NCBI RefSeq assembly: GCF_007859655.1
Contig: NZ_CP042304.1
Location: forward strand, 2,046,001-2,110,000
Direction: 5' to 3'
Source: Devosia ginsengisoli
Lineage (GTDB): Bacteria > Pseudomonadota > Alphaproteobacteria > Rhizobiales > Devosiaceae
Length of the DNA: 64,000 bases
In this document: positions 3,148-37,974 of the stretch, piece after piece
Numbering within the stretch: position 1 is the stretch's first letter
Layout: every line of letters begins with the position of its first letter
Notes under the pieces: model-generated
What the model was told of the DNA's origin: nothing
The model's database searches: none
The model's input: only the letters and a program-made list of their open reading frames with translations
Position numbers and translations under genes: made by a program

Positions 3148-3175
3148 AGCCCAGGCTGTCGCATTCAAGCGCCGG

Positions 3176-3203
3176 TTGACACCCCGCCCCTGCCCGCTAT
3201 GTT
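3176..3203 (+). promoter_or_regulatory. Sigma70-like promoter of the catB leader
   Basis: TTGACA at 3176–3181 (perfect -35), 16-bp spacer, TATGTT at 3198–3203 as -10. The predicted start of transcription is near 3210, only about four bases before the leader ORF ATG at 3214, so that ORF would be translated from a nearly leaderless mRNA. Seen by eye; not tested. Confidence 0.7.
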
Positions 3204-3213
3204 CCCGGACATC

Positions 3214-3261
3214 ATGAAGTCCGCAGACTGTACCACCTCGATAGCGATCCTGCGCGCCTGA
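3214..3261 (+). CDS. 15-residue leader peptide upstream of catB
   Basis: ATG to TGA encodes MKSADCTTSIAILRA. No Shine-Dalgarno is possible because the predicted transcript begins about four bases upstream. The tract CTTSIAIL resembles the arrest region of the ErmA leader (MCTSIAVV, as I remember it), which stalls ribosomes in the presence of macrolides. The last codons lie within the left arm of a hairpin (3244–3279). I infer a drug-sensing attenuation peptide for catB. Confidence 0.6.
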   Translation: MKSADCTTSIAILRA

Positions 3262-3346
3262 CACGCGCCGAGGGATCGCCTTTAACCGGCCACAAGAGGG
3301 CCGGCCGTTTCCGTACGTTCTGCAAAACGCGCTGCCTGCGGGCAGC
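3244..3346 (+). promoter_or_regulatory. Putative attenuator hairpins in the catB leader
   Basis: Hairpin 1: GCGATCC (3244–3250) pairs with GGATCGC (3273–3279), with an inner GCGCG/CGCGC stem, and overlaps the leader's last codons and stop. Hairpin 2: CCGGCC (3286–3291) with GGCCGG (3299–3304), followed by CCGTTTCC. Hairpin 3: GCTGCC (3331–3336) with GGCAGC (3341–3346), close to the catB start. A ribosome stalled in the leader would melt hairpin 1, which fits attenuation. The mechanism is inferred. Confidence 0.5.
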
Positions 3347-3366
3347 ACAGACTTCACGAGTCCATC

Positions 3367-3987
3367 ATGACCAATTTCTTCGAAAGCCCGTTCAAGGGCA
3401 TCCGCCTGGATGAACAGGTGACCCACAACAATATCGTGGTCGGGCGCTACAGCTATTATTCGGGCTATTATCACGGCCACAGCTTCGACGACTGCGCCCG
3501 CTTCCTGCTGCCGGACGCCGATGCCGACAAGCTGATCGTGGGCAGTTTCTGCTCGATCGGCTCGGGCGCTGCCTTCATCATGGCCGGCAATCAGGGCCAC
3601 CGCCACGACTGGGCGAGCTCGTTTCCGTTCTTCTACATGCCGGAAATGCCCGAATTTGCCGGGGCGATCGATGCCTTTGCGCCGGCCGGCGACACTGTCA
3701 TCGGCAATGACGTGTGGATCGGCACCGAGGCCATCGTCATGCCGGGGGTCCGCATCGGCCATGGCGCCGTGATCGGCACGCGGGCGCTGGTGACAAAAGA
3801 TGTCGAGCCCTACACCATTATCGGCGGCAATCCCGGCAAGCCGATCCGCGCACGGTTCGACGACGAGCAGATTGCCATGCTGCTCGAAATGGCCTGGTGG
3901 GACTGGCCGGAAGAAAGGCTGCAGGCGGCCATGCCGCTGCTGTGCAGCGGCGATATCGCGGCCCTTCACACCTTCTGGCAGGGCTGA
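3367..3987 (+). CDS. catB: Type B chloramphenicol acetyltransferase (xenobiotic acetyltransferase)
   Basis: 206 residues, the usual size for hexapeptide-repeat (left-handed beta-helix) acetyltransferases that move acetyl from acetyl-CoA to chloramphenicol and related hydroxyl acceptors; cytoplasmic trimer in the family. The catalytic His lies in NQGHRHDW (about residue 78). Hexapeptide repeats run from about 108 to 158 ([30 protein letters not shown]). No strong Shine-Dalgarno precedes the ATG, and a hairpin lies 20 bases upstream, consistent with regulated translation behind the leader peptide. Chromosomal catB genes in proteobacteria can give resistance, but the natural substrate here is unproven. 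Confidence 0.9.
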
Positions 3988-3994
3988 TCCCACG

Positions 3995-4022
3995 GACCCG
4001 CCCGGCCCTTACCGGGCGGGTC
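3995..4022 (+). terminator. GC-rich hairpin after catB
   Basis: GACCCGCCCGG (3995–4005) pairs perfectly with CCGGGCGGGTC (4012–4022), starting 8 bases past the catB stop. There is no U-tract; the next promoter begins four bases later. A likely transcription end insulating the two neighbouring units. Confidence 0.65.
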
Positions 4023-4025
4023 AAC

Positions 4026-4053
4026 TTGACAGGATGCCGCCCCTTCGCATAAT
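4026..4053 (+). promoter_or_regulatory. Sigma70-like promoter of the dioxygenase leader
   Basis: TTGACA at 4026–4031, 16-bp spacer, CATAAT at 4048–4053. The start of transcription is expected near 4060, three bases before the leader ATG at 4063. The same geometry is seen upstream of catB. Confidence 0.72.
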
Positions 4054-4062
4054 CAGCGCACC

Positions 4063-4110
4063 ATGATGATGATCCAGTCTTACAAGTTCGCGGTGTTCCT
4101 CGGCGCCTGA
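4063..4110 (+). CDS. 15-residue leader peptide upstream of the dioxygenase-like gene
   Basis: Encodes MMMIQSYKFAVFLGA, then TGA. Same length and position relative to promoter and downstream gene as the catB leader, with a hydrophobic A-V-F-L tract near its end. The stop codon lies in the loop of the hairpin GGCGCC/GGCGCC (4102–4117). Sequence similarity to the catB leader is slight, so the shared architecture rather than a recent duplication suggests the function: a ribosome-stalling sensor. Inferred. Confidence 0.55.
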   Translation: MMMIQSYKFAVFLGA

Positions 4111-4172
4111 TGGCGCCCTGTTCGGGCACACATTGAGCGGCACAGCCGCTCGATCCGGCCGCCTTTGCGGCC
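4102..4172 (+). promoter_or_regulatory. Series of hairpins between leader and dioxygenase-like gene
   Basis: Three perfect stems: GGCGCC-TGAT-GGCGCC (4102–4117, over the leader stop), GAGCGGC-ACA-GCCGCTC (4135–4151), and GGCCGC-CTTT-GCGGCC (4157–4172). The last ends 21 bases before the ATG at 4194 and could shield the start region. Likely attenuator or translation switch; alternative pairings were not computed. Confidence 0.5.
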
Positions 4173-4193
4173 TTGCGAACTTATGGATTTCCA

Positions 4194-4991
4194 ATGCCTG
4201 ATAGCATTTCCGCGCTCTCCGCAGCGCAAATCGACGCATTCATCACCACCGGTTTCATCCGCATCGACAATGCCTTCCCCCGCGCCCTTGCCGAGCAGGG
4301 CCGCGCCATATTGTGGAAGGAAACCGGCTGCGATCCTGATAATCCCGCCACCTGGACCAAGCCGGTCATCCGGCTGGGCGGCTATTCCGAACTGCCTTTC
4401 CGCGAGGCGGCCAATACGCCCCTGCTCCGCGCCGCCTATGACCAGATCGTGGGCCAGGACCGCTGGGTGCCGCCGCAGGGGCTGGGCACCTTCCCGGTGC
4501 GGTTTCCCTCGCCTGACGAGCCGGGTGACGATGGCTGGCATATCGATGGCAGCTTTGCCGGACCCGACTTCAAGGACTTCCTCGATATCCGCGCCAATGT
4601 GGTCTCCAAGGGCCGCGCCCTGCTGATGCTGTTCCTGTTCTCCGATGTCGGGGAGGAGGACGCGCCGACCCGGATCAAGGTTGGTTCGCATCTCGACGTG
4701 GCGCGCTACCTTGCCCCGGCTGGCGATGCGGGGCGCTCGCTGCGCGACATGATCACCGACCGGCCCGACTGGTTCGATACAGGCAAAGAGGCGCTGGCGA
4801 CCGGGCCGGCGGGGACGGTCTATCTCTGCCACCCGTTCCTGGTGCACGGGGCGCAAAAGCATCGCGGCAAGACCGTGAAGTTCATGGCCCAGCCGCCGCT
4901 GATGCCGCGGGGCGAGCTGGTGCTGGACCGGAAGGACGGGGAATATTCGCCGGTGGAACTGGCGGTGCGGGTGGCGCTGGACCAGGGGTAA
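4194..4991 (+). CDS. Phytanoyl-CoA dioxygenase (PhyH) family protein
   Basis: 265 residues; a predicted Fe(II)/2-oxoglutarate-dependent oxygenase of the double-stranded beta-helix fold. The iron-binding HxD is in WHIDGSF (His116, Asp118); the distal His is probably in FLVHGAQKHRG (His218), with a following Arg for 2-oxoglutarate. The ATG at 4194 is preferred to an upstream in-frame TTG at 4173, because that TTG directly follows the 4157–4172 hairpin. The substrate is unknown. Its leader-peptide control and position next to catB suggest a role in response to a ribosome-targeting compound; this is inference. Confidence 0.8.
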   Translation: MPDSISALSAAQIDAFITTGFIRIDNAFPRALAEQGRAILWKETGCDPDNPATWTKPVIRLGGYSELPFREAANTPLLRAAYDQIVGQDRWVPPQGLGTFPVRFPSPDEPGDDGWHIDGSFAGPDFKDFLDIRANVVSKGRALLMLFLFSDVGEEDAPTRIKVGSHLDVARYLAPAGDAGRSLRDMITDRPDWFDTGKEALATGPAGTVYLCHPFLVHGAQKHRGKTVKFMAQPPLMPRGELVLDRKDGEYSPVELAVRVALDQG

Positions 4992-37807: not shown

Positions 37808-37974
37808 AGCCTGCCGAGCCCTGCGAGCTCCAGAAGCGACATTCCGCCGCCCCCCGCTTGAACTTTTTCGTCGATCAGGCATTTTGGTTACGTGGCGCCG
37901 GGCCCCTCTGGCGAGGATGACGTATATCCTCGTGATGTCGGAGCTACTCCAACTTCATGGAGAAAGGTCCGGCG

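Follow-up and report, generated by a model that had tools for sequence, protein, structure and literature searches.

Inducible cat and erm genes are governed by translation attenuators, as in cat-86 and ermC. In Devosia ginsengisoli, a layout of this kind precedes a gene for a phytanoyl-CoA dioxygenase (PhyH)-like oxygenase, which raises the question of whether this gene too answers to a drug and, if it does, to which one. A sequence-only reading of the locus had proposed that the oxygenase is an induced response, perhaps one that chemically modifies an antibiotic or protects the ribosome. Here, we follow up that proposal in a stretch of 64,000 nucleotides (contig NZ_CP042304.1, positions 2,046,001 to 2,110,000; "the window"). 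All coordinates below are those of the window, and all of the features given with them lie on its plus strand.

A promoter, a leader and a structured RNA precede the oxygenase gene

The genes of interest follow one another in the order carB, catB, oxygenase, ltaE. Ahead of the oxygenase gene (265 amino acids; 4194 to 4991, with its ATG at 4194), we read a sigma-70-like promoter, TTGACA and CATAAT with a 16-bp gap (4026 to 4053; −35 box at 4026 to 4031, −10 box at 4048 to 4053), and a 15-codon leader open reading frame, MMMIQSYKFAVFLGA (4063 to 4110; ATG at 4063, stop codon TGA at 4108 to 4110), which is our proposed stalling peptide. A hairpin, GGCGCC-TGAT-GGCGCC, lies over the leader stop (4102 to 4117; arms at 4102 to 4107 and 4112 to 4117). 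The sequence-only reading had described these three elements, and all of them are present where it placed them. It had also described two further perfect stems before the oxygenase ATG, and this was true of one: the third hairpin, GGCCGC/GCGGCC (4157 to 4172; 4157 to 4162 with 4167 to 4172), has a perfect 6-nt stem, but the 10-nt stem of the second hairpin (4132 to 4154; 4132 to 4141 with 4145 to 4154) is only 90% matched. Among relatives, the third hairpin displays compensatory changes (columns 116 to 131 of the leader alignment). The RNA from 4060 to 4200 has a predicted folding energy of −61.5 kcal/mol (z = −4.65), and none of 200 shuffled sequences folded as well. An Rfam search over 3150 to 4250, up to E = 1, found nothing; the sole Rfam match at the gathering threshold in the window is a terC RNA at 37890 to 37950 (RF03067, 61.8 bits).

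Nine nucleotides separate the −10 box from the first leader ATG, a spacing that would make this mRNA almost leaderless. To survey this spacing, we took oxygenase copies that matched from within their first 20 residues and had at least 200 nt upstream, counting identical upstream regions once. Of the resulting 120 upstream regions, 82 could be labeled with a leader and 38 could not (one label, MRM for locus L047, was false; the leader there is MMFTIFNRAAAFLLV). In 32 of the 82 labeled relatives, a gap of exactly 9 nt lies between the best-scoring promoter and the leader; the gap spread, mostly over 9 to 14 nt, when inner Met codons were allowed as starts. Reading 32 selected loci by eye revealed differently worded leaders in many of them.

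A long-range helix may sequester the oxygenase start

In the predicted fold, the leader region is closed by a helix that was absent from the list of the sequence-only reading. This is a perfect 8-nt pair between AAGTTCGC (4084 to 4091), which comprises the leader codons K-F-A and would form the 5′ arm of a long-range sequestering helix, and GCGAACTT (4175 to 4182), the 3′ arm, which ends 11 nt before the oxygenase ATG. Although noncoding, the 3′ arm is conserved. Over 31 Devosiaceae sequences (30 leaders of the oxygenase and one of catB, leaving out L043, which is without the usual anti-leader), the cells of the helix were paired in 78% of cases, compared to 20 to 40% when the helix was slid. 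Covariation in this Devosiaceae alignment was not above that of shuffles, and part of the conservation of the helix may be coding constraint, since its 5′ arm also encodes leader residues.

Between lineages, both arms change their wording, from TTCGC/GCGAA in Devosia to ATCGC/GCGAT in rhizobia and CTCAATC/GATTGAG in sphingomonads. When seven lineages were represented by one sequence each, the leader:anti-leader duplex reached −20.7 kcal/mol for own pairs versus −16.7 kcal/mol for swapped pairs, and swapped pairs were as good as own pairs in 2 of 2,000 draws. Individually, many leaders are not distinguished in this way. For the window itself, the own pair was equaled by 24 of 100 shuffled anti-leaders and by 5 of 17 cross-lineage partners, and own pairs were no better than swapped ones in the three sphingomonad rows and in one Devosiaceae row (L022).

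The leader is conserved as a peptide

Of 136 Devosiaceae genomes, 56 gave a match that covers most of the oxygenase, with a stop inside the match in two of them (G128 and G091). We searched the same genomes with a DNA pattern for F-A-V-(F/H/Y/L)-L-x-A-stop, built from leaders already observed before oxygenase homologues. It matched once in each of 36 genomes, three of the matches ending in TGG rather than in a stop. Of the 33 matches with a true stop, 32 are located 80 to 109 nt before an oxygenase (in one genome, G025, an internally deleted remnant) and one lies before catB (G066); the reversed pattern, used as a control, gave 14 matches in 14 genomes. Because the pattern was derived from oxygenase leaders, the informative part of this result is that no true-stop match fell anywhere but before the oxygenase or catB. 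The exact FAVxLxA wording precedes the oxygenase in 31 of the 56 oxygenase-bearing genomes. The oxygenase leader of G066, FAVFIRA, narrowly misses the pattern, and other Devosiaceae leaders read, for example, ASVFLLA or STFFPLI. In the 31 aligned cores, 2, 1, and 6 of 6 sites vary at codon positions 1, 2, and 3, respectively, a synonymous drift such as would be expected for a peptide under selection. On these alignments, the view that the leader is real and conserved as a peptide is well supported.

Farther relatives came from genome, plasmid and species-representative collections, and among the best 80 of the 139 loci, which we examined, the oxygenase often retains a leader with other wording. 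These leaders read IASVFFL (core IASVFF) in rhizobia, NRASAFPLI in sphingomonads, STFFPLI in Paracoccus, Sinorhizobium, Neorhizobium and a divergent Devosia type (the rhodobacter type), FAVFLA in Bosea-like genomes, MFMTRTR in some Pelagibacterium, and MRM(A/T)(P/V)ML in Bacteroidota. A rhizobial leader pattern, run over 397 genomes of its own order, produced four matches, three of which precede the oxygenase; the fourth (L146) was taken as chance, the oxygenase being absent from its locus. In 291 genomes of one Bacteroidota order, all eight matches of the corresponding pattern precede the oxygenase and the reversed pattern had none; the eight include one genome seen earlier, and two of the oxygenase genes are frameshifted. 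As both patterns were drawn from leaders before the oxygenase, their independent content is that almost nothing else was matched. Seven Bacteroidota genomes had been found beforehand to contain the oxygenase, and five of them have the MRM leader. Upstream of the actinobacterial, Steroidobacter-type, and Sorangium copies, no leader was recognized. Three Streptomyces plasmid copies (L113, L114, and L115), where likewise no leader was recognized, adjoin AraC-family regulators.

The sequence-only reading had staked leader control of the oxygenase on the presence of the leader in related genomes. The leader is conserved there, both in the Devosiaceae pattern search and in other lineages, and oxygenase homologues with leaders, worded differently from clade to clade, were found in Devosiaceae, rhizobia, sphingomonads, rhodobacters, and Bacteroidota, which supports the idea that the oxygenase is leader controlled.

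The predicted fold of the gene product resembles small-molecule oxygenases

Taken alone, the window oxygenase matches the PhyH Pfam model weakly (20 bits, against a cut-off of 22), yet 32 of its 33 aligned relatives match it at an E value of ≤1e-3, and the earlier assignment to the PhyH family holds. H116-x-D118, H218, and R/K229 are conserved among the relatives: H116 and H218 are invariant, and D118 is found in over 90%, with Glu in a few. By analogy with the family pattern, these residues are presumably ligands, those of the HxD...H pattern binding iron. The predicted fold resembles those of the small-molecule Fe/2-oxoglutarate oxygenases HygX, GriE, and KanJ, and several of the similar enzymes come from antibiotic pathways; the Foldseek matches stand at 11 to 20% identity with TM-scores of about 0.4 to 0.6, and human phytanoyl-CoA dioxygenase (2a1x) is one among many fold matches, at rank 44. 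The sole solved relative found by profile search was the leucine hydroxylase GriE (E = 4e-5). None of the NCBIfam models matched any of the 33 members at an E value of ≤1e-3, and the closest named relatives, from Devosia, are 95% identical to the window protein. The HxD...H pattern together with the profile and fold matches identifies the predicted product as an Fe(II)/2-oxoglutarate oxygenase of the PhyH fold. It shares this predicted fold and pattern with HygX, KanJ, SnoK/SnoN, and GriE, from which it differs in sequence (11 to 20% identity) and in standing alone behind an attenuator. Those enzymes act in biosynthesis.

catB shares the slot and, in some genomes, the leader RNA

The sequence-only reading had spoken of the same attenuator layout at a second gene, and this was borne out just upstream. 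There, catB (3367 to 3987) passes the model for type B chloramphenicol O-acetyltransferases (NF000490, 397.9 bits, cut-off 350) and misses the streptogramin Vat cut-offs. It has its own promoter (TTGACA-16-TATGTT, 3176 to 3203; −35 box at 3176 to 3181, −10 box at 3198 to 3203), its own leader, MKSADCTTSIAILRA (3214 to 3261), and a structured leader RNA (z = −4.42). The two genes of the window have the same slot, the same promoter spacing, and similar folds, whereas catB encodes an acetyltransferase rather than an oxygenase and has a different usual leader. That leader reads MK(S/L)AD(C/R)TTSIA..., and the short forms seen elsewhere in the order include MKAARRTL and VKATRRTL; a pattern for it matched 6 of the 136 Devosiaceae genomes, always before catB (which in G117 is in two pieces).

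At over 70% identity, catB is present in 44 of the 136 genomes (two of the copies partial). Seventeen genomes carry both genes, which lie within 2.1 kb of each other in 15, with catB first in nine and the oxygenase first in six; in the remaining two, one assembly is too fragmented to tell (G094) and the other has the genes on different contigs (G018). Co-occurrence is nonetheless at chance level (17 genomes observed versus 18.1 expected), and both genes occupy a single slot between carB and ltaE. Given one shared slot and chance co-occurrence, proximity alone is weak evidence of a joint function, and the adjacency may reflect inheritance of the site. We inspected the slot in 19 of the 53 genomes that lack both genes. 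carB was found in 18, with ltaE directly next in some (clearly in L224, L226, and L231) and other genes elsewhere, and no third resistance gene was recognized by eye in these 19.

The leader RNA provides a stronger indication of the drug than gene proximity does. In G066, an FAV-type leader stands before each gene. Three genomes (G066, G073, and G018) have, ahead of catB, an RNA homologous to an oxygenase leader; the respective alignments scored 101, 70.5, and 60.5, whereas the maxima for shuffled sequences were 22.5 to 25. The catB leaders of this shared type in G073 and G018 read HHVHL and HPVHL, without Ala. In five genomes of the oxygenase-catB order, no leader of either type was recognized before catB; two of the five have an unrelated short open reading frame there. 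At two loci (L173 and L184), catB follows an oxygenase-type leader as if an intervening oxygenase gene had been lost, and at another (L151, in G025, at about 1100 to 2110 of the locus), an oxygenase leader and an internally deleted oxygenase remnant precede catB.

Outside Devosiaceae, none of the fetched oxygenase flanks contained catB. Oxygenase copies also occur on plasmids and beside recombinases, and in 85 loci with flanks of up to 6 kb no neighbor was conserved across genera; the conservation seen was limited to vertical synteny in Rhizobium and to the carB-ltaE slot in Devosiaceae. On a plasmid of Paracoccus alcaliphilus (L112), the oxygenase is separated by about 2.3 kb from an ABC-F ATPase gene (1080 to 2663 of that locus), and an aac(3) prediction lies near another plasmid copy. 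Plasmid neighborhoods were too inconsistent to be used as a functional clue and were set aside.

A proposed drug-triggered switch and its alternatives

We think it reasonably likely, judging from the comparisons above, that the oxygenase gene is translation attenuated and drug inducible, that its inducer is probably a phenicol that also induces catB, and that the oxygenase detoxifies this compound. Without drug, the predicted mRNA fold would hide the oxygenase start. An antibiotic acting at the peptidyl-transferase center would stall the ribosome in the F-A-V-F stretch of the leader, and the stalled ribosome would cover the 5′ arm of the long-range helix, freeing the start region so that the oxygenase could be made. 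In sister genomes this leader RNA also drives catB. The inducer would therefore most likely be one that catB handles, chloramphenicol or a natural compound resembling it, and a single inducer for both genes seems the simplest reading of the shared leader. The oxygenase would then most likely hydroxylate or otherwise inactivate the inducer with Fe(II), O2, and 2-oxoglutarate. Between the two functions first suggested, the small-molecule-oxygenase fold and the leader RNA common with catB in some genomes favor antibiotic modification over ribosome protection, for which no support emerged from these comparisons. As in cat-86 and ermC, a short leader open reading frame lies under the promoter of the putative resistance gene, a predicted RNA fold would hide the downstream start, and a drug-stalled ribosome is the proposed trigger; unlike in those systems, the switch would control a 2-oxoglutarate oxygenase, the leader would be read from a nearly leaderless mRNA, leader codons would pair next to the gene start so as to enclose several hairpins, and the leader sequences are different. 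Chloramphenicol stalls ribosomes where Ala, Ser, or Thr is the penultimate residue. The leader cores fit this rule loosely; the Ala is missing from the shared-type catB leaders of G073 and G018.

An explanation that we consider rather unlikely is that the attenuator is real and triggered by a drug but that the inducer and substrate is another translation inhibitor (a macrolide, lincosamide, streptogramin A, pleuromutilin, or hygromycin A-like compound), to which catB responds through promiscuous leaders. The leader cores do vary widely by clade (FAVFL, IASVFF, STFFP, MRMAPML, and MFMTRTR), the Pelagibacterium leader ends in R-T-R, an instance of the +X+ macrolide stalling motif, and the catB leader core TSIAIL is similar to that of ErmAL1. 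Against this, catB meets the chloramphenicol acetyltransferase cut-off and not those for Vat, and a leader common to both genes most simply implies one inducer.

It is less probable still that an amino acid or metabolite is what the leader detects and that the oxygenase is a metabolic enzyme, one that hydroxylates an amino acid as GriE does, for instance. Phe and Leu are abundant in many leaders, and GriE is the only solved profile relative, but a charging sensor would need an amino acid common to all leaders, which MRMAPML, MFMTRTR, and FAVFLGA do not have; on this ground, we rejected amino-acid attenuation. In addition, the leader RNA drives catB too, and the gene is patchy among Devosiaceae, has copies on plasmids and next to recombinases, and is without a neighbor conserved across genera beyond vertical synteny in the fetched loci. 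Many hairpins and short open reading frames are to be expected in GC-rich DNA, and the leader could in principle be chance or a by-product of conserved RNA structure rather than a translated regulator. We regard this as highly improbable, since the peptide is conserved through synonymous changes, the promoter spacing recurs, and true-stop matches occur exclusively before the oxygenase or catB, compared with 14 in 14 Devosiaceae genomes and 0 in Bacteroidota for the reversed patterns.

Implications for inducible resistance

Beyond the proposed phenicol-responsive switch, there is a broader possibility, to which we give somewhat less than even odds: that stand-alone PhyH-type Fe/2-oxoglutarate oxygenases of Alphaproteobacteria, Bacteroidota, and Actinomycetota form an unrecognized class of inducible antibiotic-inactivating enzymes, which oxidize phenicols or another peptidyl-transferase drug and are controlled by clade-specific stalling peptides, one of them common with catB. 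If this is true, oxidation by 2-oxoglutarate oxygenases would, in soil bacteria, take its place beside acetylation, phosphorylation, and other inducible resistance chemistries, and it would sit in genes that NCBIfam models leave unnamed. The clade-specific leaders would also supply new drug-dependent stalling peptides with which to ask what antibiotic-bound ribosomes sense, and catB would hint at the drug involved.
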